Below, piece after piece: positions 30,464-63,800 of a DNA stretch of 64,000 nt (its first letter is position 1; every line of letters begins with the position of its first letter). The notes below the pieces were generated by a model. The model saw only the letters and a program-made list of their open reading frames with translations, made no database searches and was not told where the DNA came from. Origin of the DNA: Cyclobacteriaceae bacterium (lineage in GTDB: Bacteria > Bacteroidota > Bacteroidia > Cytophagales > Cyclobacteriaceae). The translations under genes were made by a program, and so were the position numbers. The stretch spans positions 62,001 to 126,000 of the forward strand of contig JAFIEV010000040.1 of assembly GCA_020832305.1 (NCBI GenBank), written 5' to 3'.

Positions 30464-33400
30464 TCAGAATAGTGCGCTCACCTGCACATTGCCCATGTGA
30501 ATTATGTTCAGGCCTTCAGATTTTCGGCCATCGTATTGCACCATAATCTGAAGGCCATTGATCAAACGCTTCTGCATGACCAGGTTCCAGGTAAGGTTGG
30601 TGCCGGGCCTTAAGGCTTCCAGCAGGACATATCCCATAGGTGATTGTTCCTGGCCTTCAAACTGTATCTCTGCCACCCTTAAACGGCCTGTAAACATATA
30701 ATCCTTATCACCGCTGTATCTCAGCTCCATAATGGCCTCATTCCAATTGGCAAATTCGCCTTGTTCCTGAAGTGGATTAAATTTACGGGTCATCGCCAGC
30801 TGGGTGCTCAGGCGTAGTTTTGTGCCTTGCTGCCAGGCCATTTCGGGCATAAATTTTCGCTCAATCACCGTGAAATTTCTGTCACTCAAAAAGTCAGAGC
30901 CGTGATCCTCATGTCCGGCGCTCATATTGAATAAAAAATTCCACATTTGAGAAGGGTTATACCTGAACCTGAAATGGCTGTTTTCGCGGTTTCTGGCTTC
31001 AAAGCCATTGAGATGCAGCTGCCGGTTGTTGGAGAGTGAATAGCCACCCTCTGCCCCGTATCGGGTATTTCGGCGGTTAAAAAATATAATACTACGCCAA
31101 TGCGTACGCTCGTGCATTATGTTTTCATCGTCAACCGAGTTGCCCAGTGGCACCAGGCGGTTCCATATATTTTCATCGGTTACCTTGCGTGAAGCATTTA
31201 GAGCGCTCATAAGTGAAAATTTTGACATAAAAGCACTTATGCCCCCCTTTTTATCCCAGGATTTTGGCATATCGGCATTGATGCGGTAGTTCAGTTGGTT
31301 TTCATAGGCGAAAACAAACTCATCGGTGGGCATCATTATGCGTATATAGTTTCGCTCATCGGGGTTTATCGCAGGATAAAATTCGTTTAAATCCTGTATA
31401 CCATCGCCATTATCATCACGCCAGGTATGTGTTCCCTGACCGGCTGGCACCTGCACATAAAAGAAGTCCCTTCGCATTTCCCTTCCATTGCCTAAACCAT
31501 AGCTGAGCTCCGATTGCAGGTGACCTTTAAGTACATTGGCATTCCAGTTCACCCTGCCCATTACCGTTTCTTCTGAAATCCCTTCCTCGCTCAGCAGATT
31601 ATCGGCATGGCGGTAGGTAAAAAGTGCATCGAAGCTGTGGCGTGTTCCCGATTGCCTTTGCAGGCGAGCGGTAGTGGTTTTTGATCGGAAAAATGGCATG
31701 AATTCTCCCTCCTGAGGCGTTTGGTCTGTTCGAAGGCTGTAGTTGATGGCAAAAGTGGTCTTTAGGCTATCCTGGGTTTTGAGGCTGAAGATATGTTCAT
31801 CAAAATACATGGCAGACGCTTTTACATAGTCTGTGCCCGGAAGATACAAGGCATTGTGGTCCATGGCATAGGTATAGCCCGGAATAAGCCAGGCATTGTG
31901 ATAATGAATACCCGTCTGTAACCTTCGCCAGTCAGACTGCACCGCTTCGGTAGCATTATGCATCAGAAAGCCTGCGCCTGTCATACGGAAATTGCCCAGC
32001 TTCTGTGCGGCATCCATCCGATGCTGCCAGCCGTTTACCCATTCACCCCGCATACGGCTAACGGATGACCCTTTTATATAGGCCTCTGCATCTTTTTGCA
32101 GTAACAAGGCTGCGTGCCAGATGCGATCTGCATCACGCGCTGAATCCAGGGGAACTTGTACACTCCAGTCGCGGTCGAATTCAATATCCCTGAAACGGTC
32201 AATGGCACTGAAATTTCTGCTTAACCATTCAAAAGAACTTTCTCCGCTGATTTGATATTTTTTTAGCAGTGGCGCCTTCCTGGGCAAGGCCCGGTACCCG
32301 GTCTTGATGGCCATACCCTTATTATTTTCCTGATCCTGGCTTGAAAACAAATTCCGGTCATGGTCAGAAAAAGCGATTTCTGTAAAAATCTCATCCTTTT
32401 CTGTAATTTTATAGGTGCCTCCTGCGGTGACCATTTGCTTTTGATCAGGCGCTTTAAGTGGTCGCAGGGGCTCAAACCTGCCCTGGGGAACACCATTTAC
32501 CGGCTGCACCCATTCATATACCCGGCCATTGGCAATAGTATTCCTTAGCCGGTAATTACCTTGCCCCTGCCCGAGTTCATAAAAAGAAACCTGGTAGAGT
32601 GTTGCATTGCGATCGTTGCTATGCTTGTAAAATTGTATGGGCTGACCTTCGTTGTCAAGCGTATCGATGCGTTCGTACAAAACAGCTCCGGTCATATACT
32701 CCGATTCCACTGCACCAGAAGTAACCGCCTTGAGCGGGTCATTACCTGCTTCGGCCAGGATTTGCATTTGATCGAAATCGAGCGGCATACCCAGGGGTCT
32801 GAACCTATTGTCTTTCTCTTTGTAATAATTTACAAAGGCAGACCACTTTTTGGTTTGCACTTCGTGACTTGCCGTGATAATACTTCGGCTGTATTGCTGA
32901 TCAGAGTACTCAACATCGATGCGTATTCGGGTAAATCGCGTTATAAGCACACCAGGCATAAAGGTAATTTCTGCACGGTTGTAGTCTATTATATAATCAT
33001 TCTGAAAACCCCTTTGCATTCTTTTTCCATCGATAAAAACCTGCTCCGAATTTGCCAGAATAATACTGAGTGGTGATGCTCCGGGTATCCTGATTCTATA
33101 TGGCCCTGCAACACCCTCAAGTGGTTCTATTTCAAGAGAGGCAAATTTTCCTTTGGCTGCCGAAGCACCAACTCGGGTTTGTGCATTGATCCCGGGGCCA
33201 TACTTGTGCCTTGCATTAAACATAGCGCCCTGAACATTTTTATTATACCTCAGAAAGTTTGATTCATTATTGCGAAAAACTATATCTCCGGAGCTCAAAC
33301 TTAAATTATCGGTAAAGACCTCCACGAGTATGTTATCAAATTCCTGAATCCTTGCTGTATTTCCCTCTGGCTGATAGGGTATCTGCTGATCGGTTATGCT

Positions 33401-33937
33401 CGCCCTGATGCCCAGTTCATCGGTGAGCATTCCTTCCAGTTGCAGGTTTAGCGCAGATTGCACAAAAAGATTTTGTTGGTTCCCAAAACTGATTCCTCGC
33501 GATAATGCGCCGTTTTTTTGAATTTGGTCTGATGAAAACAGTTCCTCTGCCACAGGCCGCTGCGAAGCGGGATGCCCTGATCCATCAGCTGCTATATCGT
33601 ATTGTAATTCTTCATGTCCCTTTTTATATTCAGTATAGCTCTTGTGCATGTAGCTCTTGTGCAATACAATGGGGAGGGTATGGTAACAAACCTCAAGCAC
33701 TTCTCCGGGCCGGCTTTCCGGAAAAACGATTTGACCAGAGCCGGGTTCATACTGAAAGGCAATATGTTGTCCCTTAAGGTTTGTAACGACGATACTTTCA
33801 GGCCAGGCGGTAAGGCTGTCGAGGACTTGCGGGGACTCATACACTGTCATCTTTTTACATTCTTTTTCTCCTGACCGCGCAAGGAGCGGCATTGACAGAG
33901 AAAGCAATATTAGCAATAGCAGGTAGATATGTTTCAT
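30464..33937 (-). CDS. Large outer-membrane beta-barrel protein (1157 residues)
   Basis: The protein has a signal peptide (1-20), an N-terminal globular region, and a long series of amphipathic strands of the type GINAQTRVGASAAKGKFASLEI through to the end. It terminates in VSALF, the aromatic-terminal beta signal recognised by the outer-membrane assembly machinery. I cannot match it to a named transporter family, and no TonB plug is seen. Its ATG overlaps the TGA of the upstream histidine kinase gene (ATGA at 33934-33937), so the two are translationally coupled. Similar gene pairs seem to recur in Cytophagales, as far as I recall. The lower strand only yields scattered shadow frames. Confidence 0.78.
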   Translation of the reverse strand: MKHIYLLLLILLSLSMPLLARSGEKECKKMTVYESPQVLDSLTAWPESIVVTNLKGQHIAFQYEPGSGQIVFPESRPGEVLEVCYHTLPIVLHKSYMHKSYTEYKKGHEELQYDIAADGSGHPASQRPVAEELFSSDQIQKNGALSRGISFGNQQNLFVQSALNLQLEGMLTDELGIRASITDQQIPYQPEGNTARIQEFDNILVEVFTDNLSLSSGDIVFRNNESNFLRYNKNVQGAMFNARHKYGPGINAQTRVGASAAKGKFASLEIEPLEGVAGPYRIRIPGASPLSIILANSEQVFIDGKRMQRGFQNDYIIDYNRAEITFMPGVLITRFTRIRIDVEYSDQQYSRSIITASHEVQTKKWSAFVNYYKEKDNRFRPLGMPLDFDQMQILAEAGNDPLKAVTSGAVESEYMTGAVLYERIDTLDNEGQPIQFYKHSNDRNATLYQVSFYELGQGQGNYRLRNTIANGRVYEWVQPVNGVPQGRFEPLRPLKAPDQKQMVTAGGTYKITEKDEIFTEIAFSDHDRNLFSSQDQENNKGMAIKTGYRALPRKAPLLKKYQISGESSFEWLSRNFSAIDRFRDIEFDRDWSVQVPLDSARDADRIWHAALLLQKDAEAYIKGSSVSRMRGEWVNGWQHRMDAAQKLGNFRMTGAGFLMHNATEAVQSDWRRLQTGIHYHNAWLIPGYTYAMDHNALYLPGTDYVKASAMYFDEHIFSLKTQDSLKTTFAINYSLRTDQTPQEGEFMPFFRSKTTTARLQRQSGTRHSFDALFTYRHADNLLSEEGISEETVMGRVNWNANVLKGHLQSELSYGLGNGREMRRDFFYVQVPAGQGTHTWRDDNGDGIQDLNEFYPAINPDERNYIRIMMPTDEFVFAYENQLNYRINADMPKSWDKKGGISAFMSKFSLMSALNASRKVTDENIWNRLVPLGNSVDDENIMHERTHWRSIIFFNRRNTRYGAEGGYSLSNNRQLHLNGFEARNRENSHFRFRYNPSQMWNFLFNMSAGHEDHGSDFLSDRNFTVIERKFMPEMAWQQGTKLRLSTQLAMTRKFNPLQEQGEFANWNEAIMELRYSGDKDYMFTGRLRVAEIQFEGQEQSPMGYVLLEALRPGTNLTWNLVMQKRLINGLQIMVQYDGRKSEGLNIIHMGNVQVSALF

Positions 33938-36900
33938 GGTCGCTCCTCTTTCAACTCCGGCAGTTCTATATAAAAAGTAGTACCCCGGTCTGTTTCTGTT
34001 TCAAACCATATTTTTCCACCTGCGTGTTCTATACCCCGGCGTGCAATTGCCAGACCTATGCCCGTACCACTTACTTTGGTACTAAAATTTGGAATAAATA
34101 TCTTTTCCCTGATTTCCTCTGGTATCCCCAGGCCATTATCTTTTATTGACAGTAAAAGTTTTTTGTTTTTCAGGTGCACCAGTCGAATGTTGAGTTTTAC
34201 CGGCTCGCCGTCGGCTCCTGATTGAAAGCCATTTATAATAATATTGGTAATGGCCCGACCTATCCATTTGCGGTCGCCCATTACCATAAAGTTTCCCTTT
34301 TCTATTGATGTTTCAATACTGCCGCTTTCCTTGTTGTCGTACAAGGCTACGGTTTCCTTAAGCAACTGGGTAAAATCAAATTTCTCAGATCCGGGTACCG
34401 GCATTTTGGCAAATTCTGAAAAAGAAGTAGCAATATCGCTCAGGGTATTGATTTGGTGCAGCAGAGAATCAATCTGCCTCAGACGACCTTTACTTTCACT
34501 GTCTTTTTCTGCATTTATAGTACGCCGCATATGCTGCAGGGTTAACTGCATGGGGGTAAGCGGATTTTTGATTTCATGCGCCACTTGCTGGGCCATTTCG
34601 CGCCAGGCACTTTCTTTTTCACTGCGTGCCAGGGCCTTGCGACTTTCTTCGAGATTTTCAAGCATCTTATTGTATTCGCCCACCATTAACCCGATTTCAT
34701 CATCAGATTTCCATTCCAGGGGTTCATTGTAAGACAGGGTTGTACGTCTTATTTTTTGGGTTATCAGGCGCAGGGGAAAGGTGAGCCAGCGCGATGCGAA
34801 ATAGGAGGCAAATAAAAAGAGTAAAAACACAAAGGTGAAGAGGTTCATGACATTCATCAGTACATCGATTACATTCTCTTCATATTCAATTTTAAAATCA
34901 AAAAATGGAAGACTGAGTATTGCAACCAATTCACCCGTATCGGAAGACCTGATACCAAAGTAGGTGTTTTTAAAGGTAAGCTCTCCTACATTTTCATCGA
35001 GAATAACATAATTGTTCTTCAGGTGGGCTATGTGGTATAAAGCCCCGGGGTTGATTTGTTCTGAGAGCAATTCATTTTCGTAAATAAGGGGTTGGCTTGA
35101 TACAAGCAGTCTTCCGTTTGTATTAAACAAATTGATATCAAGTTCTGAATAGCCTGCAATTTCAGATATCTGAACCCTGAGTTGCTCATTGTCGAGCAAG
35201 CCATCGTCATGGCCTTTGAGTATGCCCGATAGTCGGGTACTTAAACCCCTTGCCCGGTCGAGGTATTCCTTTTCGGTTTCCTGACGGTATGATTGCAACA
35301 AAACACTTACAACTGTTATACAAACTACCAGCAGTGGCACAAAATACGCTATGTTTAAAAACATCTGTATGCGTGTGGCATAATTCTGCTTGAGGTTTTT
35401 AATTTTTACATAAATACTGGTAATGAGCAGAATAATTAAAATACTCAGCGCAAAGAGCAAAAACAGAAATGAAAAATTTGTTATGGCGCGTATACTGGGC
35501 CAGGGTTGCGAGGACACGACAATGGTTTTATCATCATCGCCATAAAAGGCCCGGTGTACAAAATCCTTCCACAATAATCCACTTCGCGAATATAATGCTG
35601 CATTATTCAGGTCAAATTCCTTTTCATAATTGAAATCGCCATAACTGTAGATCAGCCGGTTTTCACCAAAAATTCCATAACTTAGATCTTTCTGCTCCAC
35701 AATTTGAATGAATCGGTTGTCGGTAAGCAACAGCGGATATACACTATTGGGTATGATTCGTTTGAGCCGGAGGTCAAGCACTACATATCCTGCCAACTGG
35801 TTGTAACGCCTTACTTCAATAAAGCTTAAATAGCGGTTCAGCAAGCCCTCATCGTAGCGACTGATAAAGAAAATATCCGGATGTTCGGTCACATAGTCAG
35901 TGTGCCGGCTCCTGATCTGCCTGTAGTTTAATAATCCTTCATCGAAGGGTTCACCCAGGGAGTTGAAAACATAAATTTGAATATCGTAGCGGTCGAGATA
36001 GTAGTTGAGAAATACTCTTCTGATTTTCTGTCTTATAATTTCTTTGGAGGTATAGGGGCTAAAAATCCTGTTTTGTATAAATACGTCATTCTGAATTTTT
36101 TCAATCGCATCGGCCAGTAAAAATTCGGTATAGGGGTCATTCTCCGCCAGCAATTGCATAGCAAGCCTTTCTTCTTCTATGGCTTTTTGCCTGATACTAT
36201 CATTGTATATGGCATGGGCACTGATTACGGCAGAAGGCAGTCCTCCAATAAAAAGGTATACAAATGTTACATACTGAATGCGGCCTATGTTGTCGGGTAG
36301 TTGGAAAAGGTATAAAATCAGGTAATAAATAATATTCACGCTCATAATAAGGGTGAAGTTCCACCCGGCCAGTAAAGCCCATAGGGCAAATAAACCGGTG
36401 GCCGCCAAAAAATTATATAATATAGAAAGACTGTTTAGGCGGTTAATCCTGAAGAATGTTTTAAATGCTACATGGCTTATGAGAAAGTAAATGATGCCCC
36501 CCAGAAATATGATCAGATAACTTAGAAATTTAAAGCGGTTTAAACTGAGCTGATCTGTAATATCTAATGACCATTGAGAATGAAAGCACAAGCTGTACAC
36601 CAGATTATACTGAAAGGTGAGTATCAGATAGGTAATTAACACCAACATTACTGAAACCAATGACTTAACCCATGCACTGGATGTTAGCAATGTTTTAAAA
36701 ACAATGGTTTTAAAATAATGTCTGAATAAGTACCCTGCTATGGCTGTAAGGGCTGCCATATTCAGCAGTAAATCTCCAAGGGAAGGGTTCAATGCCGAAG
36801 AAGCATAATTTCTGAGATCAAATAAGTCTACCGGGAGAATAGAATAGGGAAAATCAGCTGCCAGCATAAAAAAACGCACCAGGGCCAGGCTTATACATAA

Positions 36901-37647
36901 AAAAAGAAAGCCTTTAAGATACTTATAGCGATCAATGTAAGACCATGTTCGTCGAACGAGAAAAATGATAAAGAAAATCAACGACATATACACCAGCAGA
37001 GTGATAATATGCGCCAGCCAAAAACTGTTCACTTTGTAGGCAGTCCCATACCTGATGGAAAAAAGGTATTGGGTATTGTTTAAAAAAATATCATATGCAC
37101 CTTCCTGCGGTTGCTCATACAGCTCAAACTCCTGTACATCGAAAACTGTTGAATTGAACTCCGGCTTTAGAAACTGATTGAGAATTTTAGGTTCTGAGGC
37201 CAGCAATATTAAACTTACCACCTCTCTTTTTTGTCCTTTAAAGATGTTCTCAGATCGACAAACTATGTATTTCCCTTTGGTGCCAGAAAAAAAGCGAATA
37301 GAGTCTGGGCCGGCAACATCACGGTATCTGGGTACATATCTGTAGTCAGACCAATGTACCAGTCTTCCATTTTGATAGGAAAAAAGCGGATTTGATAAAG
37401 AGGCTTCCAGTGTATTGTAGATGTCTGCACCTGAAAAAGCCTGGGAAAGCAGGTTGTAATAGAGATCCTGCTCCTTAAAAGCCTGATTTATTTGTTTTTT
37501 AAGCGCACTCTCAATTCGGGCATTAAAATATTCAGGTTGGTTATAGTATAAAGATCCCAGGTATTGCCAGATGAGAGCAATGATTAAAAAAGACAACGAT
37601 ATAAAAAAATACCGGTTTTTTCCTGATAATCTCTTACTGTTTTTCAC
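33934..37647 (-). CDS. NtrY-like multi-pass membrane sensor histidine kinase (1237 residues)
   Basis: Residue 12-30 forms a first membrane helix, followed by an extracytoplasmic region and a block of about ten further helices (about 215-470), then a second extracytoplasmic domain bounded by helices near 730 and 770. A helix and HAMP-like linker lead to the kinase. The phosphorylated histidine is H1024 in AHEIKNPLTPMQL, the NtrY/NtrB form with proline. N, G1 and G2 boxes read INGFQSG, DNGLGIPEE and GTGIGLAIA. No response regulator is adjacent. The start is GTG 37647; no ATG start suits. It is far larger than ordinary NtrY. Confidence 0.88.
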   Translation of the reverse strand: MKNSKRLSGKNRYFFISLSFLIIALIWQYLGSLYYNQPEYFNARIESALKKQINQAFKEQDLYYNLLSQAFSGADIYNTLEASLSNPLFSYQNGRLVHWSDYRYVPRYRDVAGPDSIRFFSGTKGKYIVCRSENIFKGQKREVVSLILLASEPKILNQFLKPEFNSTVFDVQEFELYEQPQEGAYDIFLNNTQYLFSIRYGTAYKVNSFWLAHIITLLVYMSLIFFIIFLVRRTWSYIDRYKYLKGFLFLCISLALVRFFMLAADFPYSILPVDLFDLRNYASSALNPSLGDLLLNMAALTAIAGYLFRHYFKTIVFKTLLTSSAWVKSLVSVMLVLITYLILTFQYNLVYSLCFHSQWSLDITDQLSLNRFKFLSYLIIFLGGIIYFLISHVAFKTFFRINRLNSLSILYNFLAATGLFALWALLAGWNFTLIMSVNIIYYLILYLFQLPDNIGRIQYVTFVYLFIGGLPSAVISAHAIYNDSIRQKAIEEERLAMQLLAENDPYTEFLLADAIEKIQNDVFIQNRIFSPYTSKEIIRQKIRRVFLNYYLDRYDIQIYVFNSLGEPFDEGLLNYRQIRSRHTDYVTEHPDIFFISRYDEGLLNRYLSFIEVRRYNQLAGYVVLDLRLKRIIPNSVYPLLLTDNRFIQIVEQKDLSYGIFGENRLIYSYGDFNYEKEFDLNNAALYSRSGLLWKDFVHRAFYGDDDKTIVVSSQPWPSIRAITNFSFLFLLFALSILIILLITSIYVKIKNLKQNYATRIQMFLNIAYFVPLLVVCITVVSVLLQSYRQETEKEYLDRARGLSTRLSGILKGHDDGLLDNEQLRVQISEIAGYSELDINLFNTNGRLLVSSQPLIYENELLSEQINPGALYHIAHLKNNYVILDENVGELTFKNTYFGIRSSDTGELVAILSLPFFDFKIEYEENVIDVLMNVMNLFTFVFLLFLFASYFASRWLTFPLRLITQKIRRTTLSYNEPLEWKSDDEIGLMVGEYNKMLENLEESRKALARSEKESAWREMAQQVAHEIKNPLTPMQLTLQHMRRTINAEKDSESKGRLRQIDSLLHQINTLSDIATSFSEFAKMPVPGSEKFDFTQLLKETVALYDNKESGSIETSIEKGNFMVMGDRKWIGRAITNIIINGFQSGADGEPVKLNIRLVHLKNKKLLLSIKDNGLGIPEEIREKIFIPNFSTKVSGTGIGLAIARRGIEHAGGKIWFETETDRGTTFYIELPELKEERP

Positions 37648-45232: not shown

Positions 45233-45772
45233 ATGAGAGACAGCGAAATTATTGCTAAGATCAGCCAAGGCGATGAAAAAGCCCTCGAATACCTGTATCG
45301 AAAATATTTTTCAATGATGAAAAGAAGCATTTTGAAAAATAATGGTACAGAAGATGAAGCTAAAGACATTTTTCAGGATGCGCTCATTGTTTTTTGGCAA
45401 AAAGTGACCAGTGGTAATCTCGTTTTGAGCTCAAAGATCAGTACTTATTTGTACAGCATCTGTCAAAATCTCTGGCGAAAAGAGCTAGATCGAAAGAAGC
45501 GCTTATCCAATGAAGAAAAAGACGAAGAGGTCTATATTAAAAACGATGAAGAAGAAAGATTGAAAATAGTTACAGATTGCATCAACCAACTGGGAGATAC
45601 CTGTAAAAAATTATTGACATACCATTATTTTGATGGTCTGCCAATGTCGGAAATTGCAGATAAATTGGGCTTTAGCAATACCGATACAGCAAAAACTAAA
45701 AAATATAAATGTAAACAGCGTTTGTATGAGTTAATCAGGTCTAAGTACTCTAAAAGTGATTTTCTGGATTAA
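45233..45772 (+). CDS. ECF-type RNA polymerase sigma factor
   Basis: The 179-residue factor has sigma-70 region 2 (about 20-75: YLYRKYFSMMKRSILKNNG and AKDIFQDALIVFWQ) and region 4 (about 115-165: CKKLLTYHYFDGLPMSEIAD). It starts at ATG 45233. Its stop and the next ATG are separated by two bases, so it is coupled to a membrane-bound partner that probably acts as its anti-sigma factor. The signal and regulon are unknown. Confidence 0.9.
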   Translation: MRDSEIIAKISQGDEKALEYLYRKYFSMMKRSILKNNGTEDEAKDIFQDALIVFWQKVTSGNLVLSSKISTYLYSICQNLWRKELDRKKRLSNEEKDEEVYIKNDEEERLKIVTDCINQLGDTCKKLLTYHYFDGLPMSEIADKLGFSNTDTAKTKKYKCKQRLYELIRSKYSKSDFLD

Positions 45773-45774
45773 AC

Positions 45775-46659
45775 ATGACGAACCACCACGAAATTGAAAA
45801 AATTGTAAGTCGCTACATCGATGGTGACATGTCTGAGATTGAGAAACTCGATTTTCAATCAAGGCTTGTTACTGATCCTGTTTTACAGGAAGAATACAGC
45901 CTGCAAAAAGATATGGTCGAAGCCATCAAAATTTACCGCAGGGCTGAACTCAAAAGTAAATTATCGCATGTTCAACTGCCGACTACAGCCTGGTATCAAA
46001 CCCTGGGCGGACAAATTGCAGCTACGGCCTCTATAACCGCAATGGTAGGGCTTGGAGCATATCTGTATTTTAGCCAACCATCTGAAGTATTTTCTGTAGT
46101 TGAAATTGATGCCTTAACATATGCACAAAATCTTCAGGGTGATGTACCTGAAATGCCAATTGCATATATACAGGAATCTGAACATGCCGACCAAAATCTT
46201 ATTTCTGATGTGACGCATGATGATGAAGTTCCCGCAAATCATGAAATATCAAATGATGCTATAGCTCAGATACGTGAACTGCCAAAGCCAGAAATAATTG
46301 TACCTGAACTGGCAATAATAGATGATGGCCGTGATTTTGAAGCACCGGATGGTGGTTTCGAAAGTTCCGTAAGCAGCTTTGAGAAATTAAGTGAAAAAGT
46401 TGCCGTAGAAACCCTGAAAGGTGTTAAAAAAGGCTTGCATTACAGGTTTACTGGAAATAAATTATTTTTGTACGGAGATTTTGGTGATCAAACCTATGAG
46501 ATAATTGAAATTAATACTCAAAAAGGAAGGCGTTTTTATCTGTTGTTTGATGGTAACTTCTTCCAGATTTTACAAAACCAGACAGATATAGCCCCACTTG
46601 AAAGAATTAAGGATGAAGAAATTATAAATGATCTGGAAATAATGCTCCGTAACAAATAA
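45775..46659 (+). CDS. Probable anti-sigma factor, single-pass membrane protein
   Basis: The 294-residue protein has a cytoplasmic N terminus typical of anti-sigma domains (VSRYIDGDMSEIEKLDFQSR), a membrane helix (about 82-100, IAATASITAMVGLGAYLYF), and a long acidic extracytoplasmic region followed by a small beta-rich C-terminal domain (about 215-290). No zinc motif is visible. Position directly after the ECF sigma gene supports the call. A strong terminator follows at 46688. Confidence 0.78.
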   Translation: MTNHHEIEKIVSRYIDGDMSEIEKLDFQSRLVTDPVLQEEYSLQKDMVEAIKIYRRAELKSKLSHVQLPTTAWYQTLGGQIAATASITAMVGLGAYLYFSQPSEVFSVVEIDALTYAQNLQGDVPEMPIAYIQESEHADQNLISDVTHDDEVPANHEISNDAIAQIRELPKPEIIVPELAIIDDGRDFEAPDGGFESSVSSFEKLSEKVAVETLKGVKKGLHYRFTGNKLFLYGDFGDQTYEIIEINTQKGRRFYLLFDGNFFQILQNQTDIAPLERIKDEEIINDLEIMLRNK

Positions 46660-47707: not shown

Positions 47708-50119
47708 GTGACGCAAAATAATAACTGGGAACAAACAGACAACCTGGCAGAAGTTAAAAAATTTCTTGGCCGCGTACTGCAAAAGTGGTATTGGATAGTT
47801 TTGTTATTTACATTATCCATAACCATTGCCTGGCTTTTTGCCCGCTATGAAGACCCTGTGTATGTAATAAACGCTTCATTCATATCAAAAAAATGGGAAG
47901 AAAGTTCTGCCGGCCTTACCGGTATGCTCGAAGGATCGGCCTTCAGACAAAGAACAGAAGTCTGGCAGGAAATACCTTATCTCAAATCAGAGAGCAGGAT
48001 CAGGGAAACCCTGCGCCGGCTCGAATTCGACATTTCTTTTTTTGTTGAAGGTCGGTTCAAAACCACCGAAATTTACAAAAATTTTACTTTTAAAATATTA
48101 ATTGATCCTGTATCTACCAATCTTCCTTTTGGCACCCCCATTTATATCAAACCTGAAAACAATAATTACTACAGTCTTTACTCCGATAATTCGACAATAC
48201 AACAGCACTTCAATGGCAGAAGGTTAAGGTTTGGGGTATCTGAAACTATACATACCTGGAAGATGAACATCCAGGCACCCAGAGAAAGTGTCAATGGCGG
48301 AGTAAACAGCTACTTTTTTATCATCAATAATCCAAACAGCCTGGTTTCTGAATATCGGCGAAAACTCAGCATAACATGGGCACAAAAAGGCTCAGCCATC
48401 TTAAATGCTTCCGTTCAAAGTAAATTACCTGAAAAAGACCTCGATTTTGTTAAAACCTATCTCGATGTAGTCATCGAAAAAGGCCTGGAAGATAAAAACG
48501 AACACCTTACCAATACCATCGATTTTATCAATGAATACATGGTAAATATTTCTGATACCTTAATGAGATATCAGAATCGAATAGATAAATTCAGATTAAA
48601 CAATCGTGAAGTACTTAATGGAAGTTCGTTCGTCTTGACAAAATTGAATGAGCTTGATGAAAAAAAGGCTGAATTGATGGTGCAAAACCAATATTATGAT
48701 TACATAGCTGACTACGTTAAAAATCAAAAACAATCTGAAATTTTTGCCCCCAATCTTATCGGTATCAACGCTGCACCTTTAAATGAGCTCATTCAGCAAT
48801 ATCTCGAAATTAAGTGGGAAGATAAAATCGCATTAAAGGAAGAAAACCTGAAAAATCCGCTTGTTAACCGAAGTAACCGGGCTTATGAACGTATTGAAAA
48901 AAATATATTTGAAGCATTGCAAAATCTAAAGTCGTTTAATGACCAACGCATGCGTGAGCTAAACGACCAGGCCAGGTTTTTCTATAGTTCGATTGAAAAT
49001 ATGCAATTCGAAAACCGGCAATATGCCGAAATGCAAAGAATGCTGGGTTTATATGAAAATATTTTTAATGATTTACTGTCTCGTCGAACCAACGCATATA
49101 TTGCAAAGGCTTCAACAACCTCAGATTATCAGATAGTAACCTCCCCTTCTTTTAGTAGTATTCCGGTTTATCCAGATACCAAAAAAATCTATTTGATTGC
49201 ACTGATTGCCGGTTTGGGACTGCCACTTGGGCTGATCTATCTTACAGATTTGTTAAATACCAGGGTAATAAGTAAAGATGACCTTGTTAAAAACACCAAT
49301 ATTCCCATCATTGGCAGTGTAGGGCATAGCCTGGCAAATTCGGCCAAGGTTATGATTCACAAACCCAAATCTCATGTCGCTGAGGCCTTCAGAGGTATAA
49401 GAGCTAATTTGCAGTACCTTAATCAGGGCAAGCCCGAAGCCAATGTTTTTCTCATAACTTCTTCTATCAGTGGTGAAGGAAAAACGTTTTGCTCCATAAA
49501 CCTGGCCTTTACTTTTGCCATGTCGGGCAAAAAAACCGTACTTATTGGTGCAGATATGAGACGCCCCTCGCTAAGCGATCATTTTAATCTCAGGGATTCT
49601 ACCGGTCTCAGCCGATATCTTGCAGGTTTTGAAGAAATAGATAATGTAATTTTCGAAACAGAAAAAGACCTTTTGTCTTTAATTCCGGCAGGAAATATCC
49701 CGCCAAACCCGGCTGAGCTTATTACTACACCCAGAATGCAGGAACTGATACAGCGGCTCAAAAAAGATTTCGACATAATTGTAATTGATACCCCGCCAAT
49801 CGGCCTGGTATCTGACACAATAGAGCTGCTCAGGTACTCAGATACTAATTTGTTGATCGTAAGACAAAACAGAAGTTATAAGAAATCACTGAATGCCATA
49901 ACTCAAATGTATAATGAAGGTAAGATAAGCCGTTTGGGTATTCTGTTTAATGACATCGACTACCGGAAATATGAATATGGCCAGGGCTATGGATACAGCA
50001 ACTCATATGGTTATGGATATGGCTATGGCTATGGTTACGGCTATTATGAGGAAGAGCAGGAAAGTGGCAACATGATTCAAAAATTATTGAGTAAATTACC
50101 ATTTATTAAAAGGAAGTGA
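47708..50119 (+). CDS. Wzc-like polysaccharide copolymerase with BY-kinase domain
   Basis: The 803-residue inner-membrane protein has a first membrane helix (about 30-46), a periplasmic Wzz-like and coiled-coil region, a second helix (about 495-515), and a cytoplasmic BY-kinase. Walker A is SGEGKT (588-593), the acidic A' motif is LIGADMRRP and Walker B is IIVIDTPP. The C terminus is a tyrosine-glycine tract (about 752-780, YGYGYGYGY). Autophosphorylation of such a tract regulates chain length and export. The start codon is GTG 47708. Its stop overlaps the next gene's start (GTGA). Confidence 0.93.
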   Translation: MTQNNNWEQTDNLAEVKKFLGRVLQKWYWIVLLFTLSITIAWLFARYEDPVYVINASFISKKWEESSAGLTGMLEGSAFRQRTEVWQEIPYLKSESRIRETLRRLEFDISFFVEGRFKTTEIYKNFTFKILIDPVSTNLPFGTPIYIKPENNNYYSLYSDNSTIQQHFNGRRLRFGVSETIHTWKMNIQAPRESVNGGVNSYFFIINNPNSLVSEYRRKLSITWAQKGSAILNASVQSKLPEKDLDFVKTYLDVVIEKGLEDKNEHLTNTIDFINEYMVNISDTLMRYQNRIDKFRLNNREVLNGSSFVLTKLNELDEKKAELMVQNQYYDYIADYVKNQKQSEIFAPNLIGINAAPLNELIQQYLEIKWEDKIALKEENLKNPLVNRSNRAYERIEKNIFEALQNLKSFNDQRMRELNDQARFFYSSIENMQFENRQYAEMQRMLGLYENIFNDLLSRRTNAYIAKASTTSDYQIVTSPSFSSIPVYPDTKKIYLIALIAGLGLPLGLIYLTDLLNTRVISKDDLVKNTNIPIIGSVGHSLANSAKVMIHKPKSHVAEAFRGIRANLQYLNQGKPEANVFLITSSISGEGKTFCSINLAFTFAMSGKKTVLIGADMRRPSLSDHFNLRDSTGLSRYLAGFEEIDNVIFETEKDLLSLIPAGNIPPNPAELITTPRMQELIQRLKKDFDIIVIDTPPIGLVSDTIELLRYSDTNLLIVRQNRSYKKSLNAITQMYNEGKISRLGILFNDIDYRKYEYGQGYGYSNSYGYGYGYGYGYGYYEEEQESGNMIQKLLSKLPFIKRK

Positions 50120-51069
50120 AAATATATACTTTGCCCGAAAAGCTTAAAAACCTTGCAGGGTTTTTAATACTACTGAGTGTACTTGCACCATGGTTTTACG
50201 CCTGTGTCCCCAATAAGCGGCTGGTATATCTTCAACATCAGGGAGACATTAAAACCATAAACCCGGTTGATACTGTTCTGAGAAGTTATAACCTCAAAAG
50301 AGAACCTTATACATTAAAAGCCGAAGATATTATATCTCTCAGGGTAGCCAGCGTAACTGAAACCGAATTTAATTTTATCAGAAGATACGAAACCGAACTG
50401 GGTATCATTAGAAAATTAAACCAGTACAAGCAGGGCGAACAGGATTTAGTAGGAAGAGGGGGGCTTAACAACCAAATGATGATGGGTGGTGGCGGTATGC
50501 GTGGGCAATCAGATGATGGAGGACTCTCTTCAATTATTCTCGACCGTATGAATTCTGGTTTTGTGCTTGACCTGAAAGGTGAAATGGAACTCCCTGAGAT
50601 AGGTCGGCTAAAGCTCGCCGGGCTTACTATTCCAGAAGCTGAAGCTTTGGTAAAAAATTCTCTCACAGGATATTATGAAACCCCAATGGTGAGAATTCAA
50701 TTGCTCAACTTTCACTATACCATATTGGGCGAAGTAAATAATGAAGGAAGGTATACAAGCTTTGATCCTGAATTAACCATATTCGATGCTATAGCGCTTG
50801 CCGGAAATCTAAGTGAATTTGCCGACAGGTCAAACATAAAAATCGTGCGGCGTGAAGGAGGTGAGGCTAAAATTATCTACCTTAATACCCTTGATGAACG
50901 TATGCTCAATGCTGAAAATTTTTATCTGAAACGCGATGACCTGATCATTGTGCCCCCCTTGCAGGCACGTACTGCCAGTATGTACACTTTACCGCGTACA
51001 AGTTCATTATTCGGTATTGTTGGTGGTGCTTTGTCATTAATAGCCATTATAATATCACTAACCCGTTGA
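50116..51069 (+). CDS. Wza-like polysaccharide export lipoprotein
   Basis: The 317-residue protein has a lipoprotein-type signal ending at C30, a poly_export domain (PYTLKAEDIISLRV) and SLBB-type segments (TILGEVNNEGRYT). A glycine/methionine-rich insert lies near residues 113-136. A C-terminal membrane helix (about 295-315) is unusual for a Wza-type outer-membrane channel but common in Bacteroidota homologues. The GTG start overlaps the kinase stop. It should form the export channel for the polysaccharide chain handled by the Wzc-like protein. Confidence 0.9.
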   Translation: MKIYTLPEKLKNLAGFLILLSVLAPWFYACVPNKRLVYLQHQGDIKTINPVDTVLRSYNLKREPYTLKAEDIISLRVASVTETEFNFIRRYETELGIIRKLNQYKQGEQDLVGRGGLNNQMMMGGGGMRGQSDDGGLSSIILDRMNSGFVLDLKGEMELPEIGRLKLAGLTIPEAEALVKNSLTGYYETPMVRIQLLNFHYTILGEVNNEGRYTSFDPELTIFDAIALAGNLSEFADRSNIKIVRREGGEAKIIYLNTLDERMLNAENFYLKRDDLIIVPPLQARTASMYTLPRTSSLFGIVGGALSLIAIIISLTR

Positions 51070-52663: not shown

Positions 52664-55600
52664 ATGAAACCAGAAGAAACGAATTATACCAGACGCAATC
52701 AAAGGAGGATATTATTCAGATATCTATATTTTAGCCTGGGTACGATTGCAGTGATGGTTGTTTTTTATTTTATAATCAAATCTGCTACTGAAAATTTGAC
52801 CTTGCGCATTTTGCAGGATCTGGTGCACAATCAATCTGGTGGTTTGTATCAGTTAAACAGTGAAAAGATTGGCGTACAACTTGCGAGAAAAAAAATGAGC
52901 TTGTACAACGCAGACTTTTCACTTAGCGATGCAGCAGTATCCGACACAAGCTCAATGCTGAAGACCCGGGAAAGTACCTATGATGCCCACTTAACTGAAT
53001 TGCATATAAATGTAGAGAGCTTATGGGATGTGTATTTCAGGAAAGAGCTTAAAATCGTATCTGTGAGTGCAATTGCCCCTCATTTGGATGTCTTTTATCT
53101 GCCAGATACCATAGAACGTACCGATATCTCGTTCAGAACAGGAAATTTGTACAACCTTATATCTGATTACCTTAATTTGTTTAAAGTCAATGATTTTGAG
53201 CTAATAGATGGCAGTTTTAATTTTATTGCTCTTACAGAAAAAGGCCAGGGTGTTTTTTCAATCAACAATATATCATTTTGGTTCAAAAATTTCCTGATCG
53301 CTCCGGAATCATTCGAAGATGAAGACAAGTTTTTGTACTCCGATGATTTTACAGTTTCTATTAAAAATCAATTGGTTGAACTGCCCGATAGCATAAATGT
53401 ACTCACCTTCGACCAACTTGATGTTTCAACCGCAGACTCTGCAATATATATACAAAACCTGCGATTACGTACACGTGACATTCTTGCTGATAAAGATCAG
53501 CAATCAGAGTTATATGATGTGCATGTGCCCATTCTTAAACTCGATGGCGTTGATTTTCTCGGTGCCTATCATCAAAACCGTTTGAATGTTGACCGGGTAA
53601 AACTTGAATCGCCAAATATTATTACAGAACAAACGCCCAGAGAAGTTCCGGTTGAAGAAGCCGCCATTAAAAACAGAATTGCCAGGTTGGCCAATGACTT
53701 TTTTGAGCAGATCGCGGTTGAAAGTTTTGAAGTCAAAAATGCACAACTCGATCTACTTGACTGGAAAAAGCTGAGAAGCCGACACTTCACCTTCGATAGC
53801 CTTGATTTTAAACTTAGCCGCTTACTTATTGATAGTTCAAACTATCAAACCAACAATAGAGTATATGCCTTTAACTCGGTTGAACTCACAATAAGAAATT
53901 ACCACCAGAGGCTTGCCGACAGCATTCATGCAATAAGTGTTGAAATTGCTACCGCGAATACCGCTACACAAACCATTAGTGCAGAAAATTTTGTTCTGGC
54001 CCCATTTAGAAAATTAACCGGTCAAACAAATGAAAATATGCAGAAAAACGACATTTTTCATGTAACCATACCGCACTTTTTACTTTCTGGTTTTGATTTG
54101 AAAAAAATTCTTTATGAAGATACCGTAAGGATACAAAATGCTATTTTTACCGACCCCGATGTGGAGTTTTATCATAATCCGGGCCAAAAACGACGAAAGG
54201 AAGATACTCCGCAAAATATCAGAGATATTTATGCGCCGGCAGAAGAGCTGGGCTTATCAATTTACCTGGGGAATATCGACCTCAGAAATGGTAAATACAG
54301 ACATTTTGTAAGCAACCGTGAGAAAGCAGTGGTAAGTCTTGAAGGCATGAACTTACAGTTGCTCAACCTTGCATTCGATTCACTTATGATTCATGGTGAA
54401 AGAAGCAGAAGAAGAGAATTACTCAGGTTTCAGATTGCCGCTGGCAATGTCAATCTCTATCAACGAAATAAAAATTTACATTTTGAAAATCTCAGATATA
54501 CCACCCGTGGTGAAACCATGTCGATAGGTCAAATCAATTTGCAGCAAGAACCAGATGGAAATAATAATAATGATAAATTGCCTTTTCAATTGGAAGGCGC
54601 TTCTGCCCGAATTGCCGGATTAAATCTTCCGGTTTTAATTTATGATCAAAAAATTGAAGCTGATACACTTTTTATAGATCTTCCTCTGCTCAGCATCGAG
54701 GCTGATCCGCCAGGTTATTCACAAAATGGAAGAAGACCTGATCTTGGCAAGCCCATTCTTATTCCGGAAGATTTATTTGTGAGAACTTATGTTGCCGGTT
54801 TCAATACAGCGCAAATCACACATGAAAAACATACATGGTTGAGCATCTCCCATGGAAAGGTAATTTCTTCAGGGATCAACAGAGCGCCCGATGACATAGA
54901 GCTTAATTTATTTGAAGGGGATTTTAAAATAGAAGGTAAAAGTTTTAAGTATAACAGTCCATGGGATTTTCTCACCCTTCAAGGAGAAGAATTCATTTTC
55001 AGCAAATCAGACTCTAGTATTTCTATTCAAAATACCAGTTTAAAGGATGTATTTTACCTGGATAATAAAAAATTTGAGTTGAATGCGCATCTACCGGAAT
55101 TGCTAATTGGCGGATTTGATTCTGAATCGGCCATTCATAAAAACCAAATTGATATTGATGAAATTTTTACAAGAGGTGCCCTGGTTACATTTAAGCCACT
55201 GCCAAATGACCGGCGCTTTAACATAAAACCAAAAGCCAGGCCTGCTAAGAATAAATCTGACAAAGTCGATGATACAGGAAGCTTTGTTAACATTAAGAAG
55301 ATTTCCATCGAAAAAACCAGCATACATGCCCATGATCCCCCGCATATAAATGTAGAGACCTCTATTCAAAATCTGCACATTCGGGATATCGCCTTTTCCA
55401 CACATGAACTAAAGCTCGAAAATCTCAACATTATCTTTAATAATTATTCTACCAACATAGATTTTTTAAAGTATTCAGATGCAGAAAAATCAATAGTGAA
55501 TATTAAAAATATTTCTTTTGACTCAGAGCGCGATGAATTTATTACAGGAGCTATCTCTTATTACCCCATTGAAAAAAATGAGGAACAAGTTTTTACAATT

Positions 55601-57037
55601 GATAACATATACATCCCCGGTATAAAGATCAATGGATTAAATCCACTCAATGGTGTTATAAATAAGTCCTGGCAATTTGCGCATGCCGATTTGCAAAATC
55701 CTGAAATAGCCCTTACACTCAGGCCTGATAAAAAAAGAAAAACCGATAATCATAAACCTGTAAAAACCGCAAGCAGCATAAAGTCAAATACAATTAGCGG
55801 TGATTTGAATTTTATAAACGGAAAATTAAACCTTGCTCTGTCACTGGATTCAGGGGAAATGAAATTTCAAATGGATTACTTCAGCCTTTCGTTAGATGAC
55901 CTCAATCTTTCCAATGTCTCTCAATACGATCAACAACAATTATTCTTTTCAAGGAATTCAATACTTGCACTAAAAAACATCTCGCTTGACCTCCCCGATA
56001 GTTTGAATACGCTCAGTATCGGGGCACTGGATTTTGCACAGGAAGATTCCCTTATGATAATCAACCATATTTGTTTAATGCCCCGCTATGACAAAATGGA
56101 ATATGCAATAAAAGCTGGTAAAGAAGCAGACTGGATCAATTTAAAAAGCAGTGAAGTGGTTTTACAGGGCCTTGATCTACCCAGACTGATACATGATGCA
56201 GCACTGTATTGCCGGCGTATAGATATCGACAGTCTATATGTTGAAGCCTTTAGGAATAAACAAGTCCCATGGCCTGACACTTTATTTAAGCCTATGCCAC
56301 AAGAAACGATATCCCAAATTGCCAATAAATTTGCAGTTGATCAGATATCCATTAAGAATTCGTACATCAGTTATGAAGAACTGCCTGTTGAAGGAACCAA
56401 AGCCGGTAAAATCTATTTTACAGATGTAAATGCCACCATAGGTCCCTTAACCAATGACGACAGTTTACGTACAATAGGTGAAGGATATGCTTTTTCAACC
56501 CTTAATCTAAAAGGGAAACTCATGGGTGAAGGAAATATTTCATCGGTCATGAGGTATGACATGGTTCATGCAGATCAAAATTTTTTAATGACTGCATCAA
56601 TGGGGCCTATCCAACTCGACAAGCTTGAACCTGTGTTGTTGCCTCTGGTATTCATTAATATTCCATCTGGTAAAATGGAGTCTTTACAACTTAGAGTTAA
56701 TGCGAATCGTTATTATGCGGTAGGTGAAATGAGAATGAGATATCATAACCTCAGGGTACAATTTGTCAACCAGCAAAACTATGAATCATCTGGAATGGGT
56801 CCTGCACTGATGACTTTTTTTGCCAACACATTTGTGATAAGAAAAAATAACAACCGGGCACTACTCGTAAGAAAAGGTGATGTATTTTTTGAAAGGGATG
56901 AAACGAGATCTATCTTTAATTACTGGACTAAAATAATCCTCAGTGGAGTGGTAAGCAGTGTTGGCGCCAAAAATCATAGAAAAGAATTGAAACAAATTCA
57001 GGACCAAAGAATTGAAAATATAACAGCAGAACCTTAA
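52664..57037 (+). CDS. Giant AsmA-like/lipid-bridge-like membrane protein (1457 residues)
   Basis: A single N-terminal helix (about 20-42) anchors the protein in the inner membrane; the rest is repetitive amphipathic beta structure, with recurrent units such as FSINNISFWFKNFLIAP and LQLLNLAFDSLMI. The last 150 residues (GPIQLDKLEPVLLPLVFIN to the end) resemble the C-terminal part of DUF748/AsmA-type proteins. Such proteins may span the periplasm and pass lipid along a groove. This assignment rests on architecture and not on a clear family match. The coiled-coil gene follows after 12 bases and shares the terminator at 57698. Confidence 0.72.
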   Translation: MKPEETNYTRRNQRRILFRYLYFSLGTIAVMVVFYFIIKSATENLTLRILQDLVHNQSGGLYQLNSEKIGVQLARKKMSLYNADFSLSDAAVSDTSSMLKTRESTYDAHLTELHINVESLWDVYFRKELKIVSVSAIAPHLDVFYLPDTIERTDISFRTGNLYNLISDYLNLFKVNDFELIDGSFNFIALTEKGQGVFSINNISFWFKNFLIAPESFEDEDKFLYSDDFTVSIKNQLVELPDSINVLTFDQLDVSTADSAIYIQNLRLRTRDILADKDQQSELYDVHVPILKLDGVDFLGAYHQNRLNVDRVKLESPNIITEQTPREVPVEEAAIKNRIARLANDFFEQIAVESFEVKNAQLDLLDWKKLRSRHFTFDSLDFKLSRLLIDSSNYQTNNRVYAFNSVELTIRNYHQRLADSIHAISVEIATANTATQTISAENFVLAPFRKLTGQTNENMQKNDIFHVTIPHFLLSGFDLKKILYEDTVRIQNAIFTDPDVEFYHNPGQKRRKEDTPQNIRDIYAPAEELGLSIYLGNIDLRNGKYRHFVSNREKAVVSLEGMNLQLLNLAFDSLMIHGERSRRRELLRFQIAAGNVNLYQRNKNLHFENLRYTTRGETMSIGQINLQQEPDGNNNNDKLPFQLEGASARIAGLNLPVLIYDQKIEADTLFIDLPLLSIEADPPGYSQNGRRPDLGKPILIPEDLFVRTYVAGFNTAQITHEKHTWLSISHGKVISSGINRAPDDIELNLFEGDFKIEGKSFKYNSPWDFLTLQGEEFIFSKSDSSISIQNTSLKDVFYLDNKKFELNAHLPELLIGGFDSESAIHKNQIDIDEIFTRGALVTFKPLPNDRRFNIKPKARPAKNKSDKVDDTGSFVNIKKISIEKTSIHAHDPPHINVETSIQNLHIRDIAFSTHELKLENLNIIFNNYSTNIDFLKYSDAEKSIVNIKNISFDSERDEFITGAISYYPIEKNEEQVFTIDNIYIPGIKINGLNPLNGVINKSWQFAHADLQNPEIALTLRPDKKRKTDNHKPVKTASSIKSNTISGDLNFINGKLNLALSLDSGEMKFQMDYFSLSLDDLNLSNVSQYDQQQLFFSRNSILALKNISLDLPDSLNTLSIGALDFAQEDSLMIINHICLMPRYDKMEYAIKAGKEADWINLKSSEVVLQGLDLPRLIHDAALYCRRIDIDSLYVEAFRNKQVPWPDTLFKPMPQETISQIANKFAVDQISIKNSYISYEELPVEGTKAGKIYFTDVNATIGPLTNDDSLRTIGEGYAFSTLNLKGKLMGEGNISSVMRYDMVHADQNFLMTASMGPIQLDKLEPVLLPLVFINIPSGKMESLQLRVNANRYYAVGEMRMRYHNLRVQFVNQQNYESSGMGPALMTFFANTFVIRKNNNRALLVRKGDVFFERDETRSIFNYWTKIILSGVVSSVGAKNHRKELKQIQDQRIENITAEP

Positions 57038-60803: not shown

Positions 60804-63800
60804 TTAATTTTTAACGGCTCTGTTTTGATTTGCAAATTCTGAGGGGGTTTGGCCAAATTGTTTTGAAAAACATTTGGAAAAATACTGAGGATCATTGAAA
60901 CCTACATCTGATGATACTTCAGTGATGGTACAATTGGTTTTTTTAAGCAGCTGCGCCGCCCTTTTGAGACGAATTAGACGAATAAATTCATTGGCAGACT
61001 GATTGGTTACTGCCTGCAATTTTCTGTAAAGTACCGAACGGGACATTCCGATTTCTCTCACAAATCTCCTTACATCAAAATCGGGGTCTGAAATATTATC
61101 TTCTACTATTTTCACTGCCTTTATTACGAACTGTTCATCAGCAGATTCAATGGCAATCTCTGTTGGTTCGAGTAATAAATTCTTTTTAAATAATTCTCTT
61201 AACCTTTTTCGGCTTGCAATGAGATTCTGTACCCTTGCCAAAAGAATACTGCTGTCAAAAGGTTTTGTAATGTAATCATCCCCTCCAATCTGATATCCTG
61301 CCAAATGCCTTTCCCTGCTATCCCATGCCGTCAACAATATCACAGGTATGTGGCTGGTTTCTTCCTTTTCTTTGATTTTGCTACATAATTCTATTCCATT
61401 TATTCCTGGCATCATAATATCGCTTATTATGAGATCCGGAATGTATCTGGCTGCAATGTCTAAACCAGACCTGCCATTATCTGCCTCAATTATACAGTAA
61501 TTCTCTTCCAGACACATCCTGATAAATTTCCTGATATCCCGGTTGTCATCAACCACAAGTACAATGGGTTTATTTGTTTGGATTGAATCATTTTCATGTA
61601 TAAGTTCATCATCTGCCATTTGATGCAAAGGTTCCTCGTCCAGAAAATTCATCAATTTGTTTTTAAGGTCAGCTTGCTCAAGAGAATGATTTTCGACAAA
61701 ATCCTCAGAATTAAATAAGGTCTTGTCAAGAGGAAGGCTTACTACAAATTTACTGCCTTTTCCCTCTTCGCTTTCAACCAGAATACTGCCATTGTGCATT
61801 TCTATCAATTCACGGGTATGCGAAAGACCTATTCCACTGCTTTCAAGTGCAATGGTTTTTCGCAACTTTTCATCAGGGCTTATTTTGTAGAAGCGATCAA
61901 AGATTTTAGTCATCCGCTCGCGTGATATCCCAATACCATTATCCTGAACGCTGATTTGCACATTTGAATCCTGGGGTCTATATTCAATTTCTACCAATAT
62001 ACGACCTCCGTCTGGTGTAAATTTAAAGGCATTTGAAAGAAGATTATAAAATATTTTATCAAGTTTATCTACGTCACAATACATCCACAATTCTTCACAA
62101 TTACTCCTGAAAGTGTAATTCATTTTGTGTTGAAGTGCAAAATCATCAAAAGCTTCTTTGATGTTTTTAATGAAAGAGATGATATTTTCCTGTTTGAGGG
62201 TCAGGTCCATTTTACCTTTTTCCATTTTCCTGAATTCCATTAGCTGATTGACCATTCTCAACAAGCGCATGGAATTTCTATGCATAATAGAAATATGACT
62301 TTTATAATTTTGCGTAACCGCATGATCTTCCATGAGTTTTTCAAGTGGGCCAATGATCAGTGTAAGCGGAGTCCTTAATTCGTGGGATATATTGGTAAAA
62401 AACCTGAGTTTCATTTGGGCTACTTCATCTATTTTTTGTTTTTCAAGCTCCTTAATTCGGATATTATTCTTCATTTGAGCCCTGTCATTGGCAAATTTCC
62501 GGAATGAATACAATAGAAAAATAAAGGTCATAGTGTATATAAGGTAGGCCCATGATGTTTTCCAAGGAGGAGGCAACACTTTGATATGAATAAAAGCCCC
62601 TTCATCATTCCATACTCCATCGTTATTGGAAGCTTTTACCCTGAATACATAATCCCCCGAATGGAGGTTTGTATAGGTAACCATCCTGCGGGTACCGGCA
62701 TGTGTCCATTCCGGCATAAAACCTTCCATCATGTAGGCATATTGATTTTTTTCCGATGAAATAAAATTAAGTGCTGTATATTCAATAGAAATTACCGATT
62801 GTTTATGAGTGAGTGTAATATGCCTGGTCTCACTGATATGTTGTGTAAGCGGACTATTTTCTGAGCCTATTTCAAGTGGTTTATTATTAACATGAAAGCC
62901 AGTTATATATACTTTGGGTTGAATTGGATTTTCCTGTATCGATAATGGATTAAAAACATTGAATCCATTTACACCTCCAAAATACATTTCACCATTCCTG
63001 GTTTTCCAGGAAGCATTATATGAAAATTCATTGCTCTGTAGCCCGTCACTTCGCTCAAAATTTTTAAAAGTCATTTTCTCAGGATTAAACCTGCATAAAC
63101 CCTTATTGGTGCTCAGCCATAAATTTCCATTGTTATCTTCCTGTATACTATGTATGGCATCATTTGGCAAACCATCATAGGCGTTGTAAACCCTGAAACT
63201 TTTTTCATCTGGCATCAGCAAATTGAGCCCCCCTCCTTCAGTTCCTATCCATATCCGGTTTTTTTTATCCTGAAAAATACATCTCACATCGTTGCTGCTC
63301 AGGGAATGTTCGTCATCGGGATTATGCCAAAAACTACTAAACTCCAAAGTTTCAGGATTCATACGGCTAAGACCTGTGCCTCCTACCCATATATTGCCTC
63401 TTATATCCTCAGTTAGACAGGTTACCCGGTGCACAAATTTTTCAGGCTGATTGATACTAAATCTCAAGGGCAGAAAATCATCAGTTTCATTGCGATAAAG
63501 ATGTAAACCTCCATTCAGCGACCCGATCCAAATTCTCGACCTGGAATCTTTGAGCAAGGCCCAGATATGTTCACCTTGCAAGGCATTTGGAAGTCGTGGA
63601 TTGGCATCACAGCGTCGAAAAATGCCGGATTTGGCATTTAATATATTTAAGCCCCCCTGATAAGTGCCTATCCAAAGCTCTTCTTCATTTACCGACAGCA
63701 GGGAAGTAACGGCGTTGCTGCTCAGGGAATTTGGATCGGTGGCATTATGCTGATAATGAGTAAATTTCTGACTTACCGGATCAAATGCATTAAGTCCTCC

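Follow-up and report, generated by a model that had tools for sequence, protein, structure and literature searches.

Overlapping genes for a multi-sensor histidine kinase and a predicted SprA-related outer-membrane barrel in a Cyclobacteriaceae bacterium

The window analysed here, meaning the whole 64,000-nucleotide stretch at positions 62,001 to 126,000 of contig JAFIEV010000040.1 from a Cyclobacteriaceae bacterium, contains two tandem minus-strand genes encoding a histidine kinase and a predicted outer-membrane barrel protein. A preliminary description of this DNA reported open reading frames (ORFs) of 1237 and 1157 residues, an ATGA overlap between them and a VSALF sequence at the C-terminus of the barrel, all of which were recovered (Table 1). 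The junction reads ...gaggagcgaccATGAaacat, with four bases shared by the two genes. Among 56 loci from named genomes in which the pair is adjacent, the junction fell between −4 and +4 bases in 23. Overlaps of 67–197 bases between automatically chosen ORFs were present in some relatives (L087, L088, L097, L099, L103, L117, L123 and L124), and these are probably artefacts of start choice. Each protein retrieved a single match in its own genome, where the barrel gene is single-copy, and neither matched the plasmid records searched. As previously reported, no response regulator was found near the pair; the closest receiver domain found among the scanned ORFs of the window lies 23 kb away. A search of the open-access literature by title and abstract returned nothing on a pairing of such a kinase and barrel, on a paralogue of SprA or on the phenotype of a Cytophaga kinase.

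Table 1. Features of the kinase and barrel genes, in window coordinates
Feature	Position	Strand	Basis or remark
Kinase gene	33934-37647	(-)	GTG start, 1237 aa; ORF read from the window
Extracytoplasmic domain 1, residues 36-208, between transmembrane helices TM1 and TM2	37024-37542	(-)	AlphaFold2 model, predicted local distance difference test (pLDDT) 84
TM2-TM9 bundle, residues 209-480	36208-37023	(-)	Hydropathy and model
Extracytoplasmic domain 2, residues 481-722	35482-36207	(-)	Model
Extracytoplasmic domain 3, Cache/PAS-like, residues 787-928	34864-35289	(-)	Model and VIA-align
HAMP, residues 951-1001	34645-34797	(-)	Pfam PF00672, E 0.0011
HisKA, phospho-acceptor H1024	34423-34605	(-)	Pfam PF00512; invariant in relatives
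HATPase_c	33955-34278	(-)	Pfam PF02518, E 4.6e-21
ATGA stop/start overlap	33934-33937	(-)	Junction sequence; −4 overlap also in 12/56 related loci
Outer-membrane barrel gene	30464-33937	(-)	ATG start, 1157 aa; ORF and AlphaFold2 model
Signal-peptide-like N-terminus, hydrophobic, residues ~1-21	33875-33937	(-)	Sequence
Beta domain at the N-terminus, residues 34-88, repeating the domain shared with SprA	33674-33838	(-)	hhalign
SprA-shared segment, residues 159-345, including the DG..RG..DYxIDYxxAEITF motif	32903-33463	(-)	hhalign
Predicted barrel, residues 139-1157	30467-33523	(-)	DSSP strands of the AlphaFold2 model
C-terminal beta signal VSALF	30467-30481	(-)	Sequence

Pfam searches of the kinase identified HisKA (E 2.8e-8) and HATPase_c above their cut-offs, and a weak HAMP match below the curated cut-off. 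H1024, N1135/N1139 and the D-x-G-x-G region were invariant among 40 relatives; because these motifs are intact, the catalytic core is expected to be functional and the kinase active. The protein had been called oversized, a label that does not hold within its family, the members of which are typically ~1190–1310 amino acids long. An AlphaFold2 model of residues 1–940 (mean pLDDT 84, predicted template modelling score (pTM) 0.73) agreed with hydropathy on about 12 membrane helices, in keeping with the earlier count. Placing the HAMP and catalytic domains in the cytoplasm gave three extracytoplasmic regions instead of the two previously proposed. Residues 51–150 of domain 1 resembled 4zr7_B by structure alignment (Z 10.5), and the periplasmic loops of the TM2–TM9 bundle carry the conserved motifs YASSxxxPSLGDLLLN and SQxxLDIT. 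Domain 3 aligned by VIA-align with the extracellular domain of WalK (4ywz_B, Z 12.6, 138 aligned residues, root-mean-square deviation 2.9) and with CitA (Z ~12), and is predicted to adopt the Cache/PAS kind of small-molecule sensor fold. Pfam searches with 36 kinase sensor regions yielded only weak ArlS_N and sCache matches in a few members.

The protein is a known kind of histidine kinase. It has in common with the NtrY-type and NtrB-like kinases of NtrYX systems a HAMP domain, a HisKA domain of the VAHEIKNPLTPM type, HATPase_c and a large extracytoplasmic region, whereas its 12 helices and three extracytoplasmic domains set it apart from NtrY. In NtrY a PAS domain lies between HAMP and HisKA. 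Here 13 residues separate the end of HAMP (1001) from the start of HisKA (1015), which leaves no space for a PAS domain, and we therefore rejected NtrY orthology and regard the kinase as working like NtrY. In a further departure from NtrYX, no NtrX-type regulator was present among the scanned neighbours. The WalK/CitA-type Cache-PAS sensor kinases share the fold of domain 3 but do not have the two additional extracytoplasmic domains and the 8-helix bundle that precede it in this kinase.

The AlphaFold2 model of the barrel protein (pLDDT 79) contains 36 strands of at least nine residues between residues 139 and 1157, as assigned by DSSP on a predicted model with a pTM of 0.61. Relatives are 1082–1271 amino acids long, and 91 of 94 end in Phe, consistent with the proposed C-terminal beta signal. 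The window protein had no Pfam or NCBIfam match, and nothing rose above chance when 30 members of its family were searched against both collections. Single-sequence and profile searches against Protein Data Bank (PDB) chains also gave no useful match. Assignment to a TonB-dependent transporter or porin family had been left open in the preliminary description. Among the 30 members no TonB-dependent plug or barrel domain was matched at E<=1 in Pfam or NCBIfam, and the porin families gave one member each with Porin_4 (E 0.54) and OMP_b-brl (E 0.0037); both assignments were rejected, as no family match exceeded chance. The profile of the usher family, to which FimD belongs, likewise matched none of these members.

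SprA is the type 9 secretion translocon, and it ranked first in a Foldseek search with the barrel model (8gl6_A, E 2.6e-8); VIA-align gave a Z of 15.8 over 511 residues. We then used hhalign to compare a profile of 84 barrel sequences with aligned SprA proteins of 23 genomes. The barrel region 136–420 matched SprA with an E of 2.8e-6, and a second colinear patch had an E of 0.003. Reversed controls gave an E of 0.25 or worse, and when the SprA profile was shuffled six times and aligned with the complete barrel profile, the best E was 0.018. Residues 34–88 of the barrel matched both an internal copy (E 3.2e-6) and SprA (E 2.5e-5). A TIGR04189 search of the order also matched eight members of the barrel family at model positions 604–656 (E 1.8e-6 to 4.7e-4), with scores of ~18–26 bits against a curated cut-off of 200 bits. 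By these sequence comparisons the barrel is partly homologous to SprA and lies outside the SprA family.

The likeness to SprA/Sov (TIGR04189; PDB 8gl6 and 6h3j) extends to an outer-membrane location, to a predicted count of ~36 strands and to an N-terminal segment with a DYxxDYxxGxITF domain. SprA itself has 36 strands (PMC10994853). The barrel differs from SprA (~2300–2500 amino acids) in having about half the length, ~1160 amino acids, in reaching at most 26 bits with the TIGR04189 model and in carrying the shared domain a second time at its N-terminus. The genome from which the window derives encodes a separate true SprA. We conclude that the barrel represents a new SprA-related family without a name.

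The preliminary description proposed that the pair be tested for co-occurrence as neighbours. Among 118 genomes sampled evenly across the order, the kinase was present in 94, the barrel in 80 and both in 76, with 18 genomes having the kinase without the barrel and four the barrel without the kinase. The genes were adjacent on the same strand in 29 of these 76 genomes, representing 8 families, and apart in 47, with some separated pairs lying megabases apart on one contig. A few of the 47 are on different contigs of fragmented assemblies, and a neighbourhood reading of the fetched loci supports separation. A second sample covered 296 genomes of the phylum, in which the barrel was found in 175 and a strong kinase match in 29. 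The barrel was present in 16 of the 29 genomes with a strong kinase match versus 159 of the 267 without one, so that no phylum-wide association was apparent (Fisher p 0.69). Addition of weaker kinase matches, many of them partial, brought the kinase count to 57 genomes and gave a modest positive association (p 0.016). SprA was present in 228 of the 296 genomes, including 174 of the 175 that carry the barrel. The sole sampled barrel genome without a full SprA match was G376, a single contig of 3.3 Mb.

Cytochrome-oxidase genes lie upstream of the kinase gene in 31 of 89 loci from 9 families. This cluster encodes subunits III and IV, an SCO-like protein, DUF420, an 85-amino-acid cysteine protein and DUF983; the products were named by eye from sequence, except for DUF420, which was identified by profile. 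The 85-amino-acid protein looks secreted, contains a CAMCRAxxEN motif and occurs in many Cytophagales; its gene is located between DUF420 and the kinase gene in this cluster (e.g. L071:5944-6195 and L104:5920-6171) and was found upstream in 28 of the 89 loci. Among genomes containing both the kinase and the barrel, 17 had an adjacent pair with oxidase genes, nine an adjacent pair without them, nine a separated pair with oxidase genes and 36 a separated pair without them. Three family-mates retained the oxidase cluster, the kinase gene and, downstream, the genes of an Mla-type transporter, while the barrel gene was gone from its slot. In the genome studied here the DUF420 gene is on another contig and the kinase/barrel overlap is kept. 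In two Pedobacter genomes, genes resembling FolE and FabD precede the pair, and the kinase of a related genome that does not have the barrel retains these neighbours.

On the kinase tree (FastTree, weak backbone) adjacency to the barrel changed at least eight times and linkage to the oxidase genes 10 times. Adjacency of the kinase and barrel genes exceeds chance. As it occurs in 8 families and also in Pedobacter with different flanks, the arrangement is old, and the simplest reading is an ancestral arrangement that was broken repeatedly. Away from the kinase, the barrel had no generally conserved neighbour. The commonest was a single-span coiled-coil protein of ~300 amino acids with a conserved C-terminal domain, the gene for which is convergent to the barrel gene in eight of 64 loci from several lineages. 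It is also convergent to the kinase gene in a family without the barrel, and in the genome studied here it is found on another contig. The loci noted for these convergent arrangements are L174, L178, L267, L284, L113, L118, L126 and L135. The coiled-coil protein may mark an ancestral three-gene neighbourhood.

The explanation that we favour, with slightly better than even confidence, is an ancestral operon of a separately conserved kinase and a SprA-related barrel that are co-expressed in this bacterium, the barrel being independent of the kinase in most of the phylum. Co-transcription together with coupled translation would bring about the co-expression. The kinase would most likely read the envelope or respiratory state and phosphorylate a response regulator whose gene lies at another site. 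For the barrel, the most likely role is that of a large outer-membrane channel, gated or plugged, or of an assembly platform, and it would work in cells with type 9 secretion whether or not the kinase is present. Because either protein is often found alone, the two probably do not form one obligate machine; a functional linkage between them is possible. A linked operon with a barrel outside any named family is supported; the single trans-envelope sensory device of the preliminary description, taken as an obligate pair, is not.

Several points weigh against this explanation. Large barrels resemble one another in fold searches, and FimD, AlgE and OprD-type porins aligned with the barrel at Z 16–17.5, although over shorter stretches than SprA (346 residues at Z 17.5 for FimD). 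As these proteins score similarly, the fold match alone is not decisive. FimD also bears an inserted beta domain, but like AlgE and the OprD porins it resembles the barrel in general fold, and its similarity belongs to this general barrel likeness. The C-terminal 740 residues of the barrel, two thirds of the protein, had no SprA sequence match by hhalign. Both the strand count and the sensor folds of the kinase are model predictions, in the case of the barrel from a model with a pTM of 0.61. The co-occurrence with SprA reflects few independent losses, and some SprA-less groups have SprA-bearing relatives that are also without the barrel; as phylogeny explains part of the pattern, it is not proof that the barrel depends on SprA. 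Finally, the pair stays together in nine loci in which the kinase is off the oxidase genes, including the window, a persistence that neutral linkage alone does not call for.

The same nine loci, in which the pair moves as a unit, are consistent with a single trans-envelope device in which the barrel takes up a surface signal and passes it to the extracytoplasmic domains of the kinase. The conserved tandem order with its many −4, −1 and +2 junctions also points this way, as does the presence of the barrel in 76 of the 94 order genomes with the kinase versus four of the 24 without it. However, this association within the order is inflated by several very small genomes among those that contain neither gene, and sensor domains of 140–240 residues would be unlikely to span the periplasm unaided. 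Adjacency is lost in 47 of 76 genomes, each gene also occurs alone, and association is absent at the level of the phylum. We therefore consider such a device quite unlikely; as an obligate pair it is not supported, given these separations and the loss of the barrel in the three family-mates. That adjacency is functionally meaningless, an inherited and decaying neighbourhood with coupled translation as a by-product, is also unlikely, if a little less so. The absence of a phylum-wide association agrees with it, and the kinase has been separated from the barrel with roughly the same frequency as from the oxidase genes (8 versus 10 changes). On the other hand, 8 families and a second order have retained linkage at near-zero spacing despite rearrangements, and in the window the pair is intact even with the oxidase-linked DUF420 gene on a different contig.

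Control of the barrel and of other envelope or respiratory genes by the kinase through a distal regulator, a link that would be regulatory and not physical, is the least doubtful of these alternatives, although we hold it to be less probable than the operon of separately conserved genes. It agrees with the overlapping tandem genes, with the oxidase-cluster context and with seven strong sigma-54 activator matches that lie on other contigs of the genome, none of them adjoining the pair. NtrYX-type systems regulate the cell envelope (PMC7240162), and a regulatory link therefore fits better than a physical one. Against it, no regulon or regulator was identified, and many genomes without the kinase carry the barrel. 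It is improbable, more so than any of the preceding alternatives, that the barrel is a second class of giant translocon derived from SprA, the activity of which is read by the three-sensor kinase, perhaps via the coiled-coil protein. If true, lineages with the kinase and barrel would have a signalling path that monitors a translocon.

Other genes of the window were noted in passing. A gene resembling those for ECF-type (extracytoplasmic function) sigma factors, followed directly by a possible anti-sigma gene, lies ~8 kb from the kinase gene (45233-46659, plus strand; assigned by eye). A polysaccharide-export pair at 47708-51069 (plus strand) encodes a Wzc-like ATPase protein and a Wza-like Poly_export/SLBB protein with a 4-base overlap. 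The 1457-amino-acid product of 52664-57037 (plus strand) has an N-terminal membrane helix, no Pfam match and, by eye, the look of AsmA/TamB-type repeats. The receiver domain mentioned above belongs to a self-contained hybrid two-component regulator at 60804-63965 (minus strand), which combines propeller repeats, HisKA, HATPase, a receiver and an AraC-type helix-turn-helix.

More than half of the sampled Bacteroidota genomes carry the barrel, yet neither Pfam nor NCBIfam has a model for it, which leaves a clear gap in envelope annotation. Should it prove to be a channel or an assembly factor that acts beside type 9 secretion, the view of how this phylum handles its surface proteins would change, and the linkage to the kinase provides a testable handle on barrel function.

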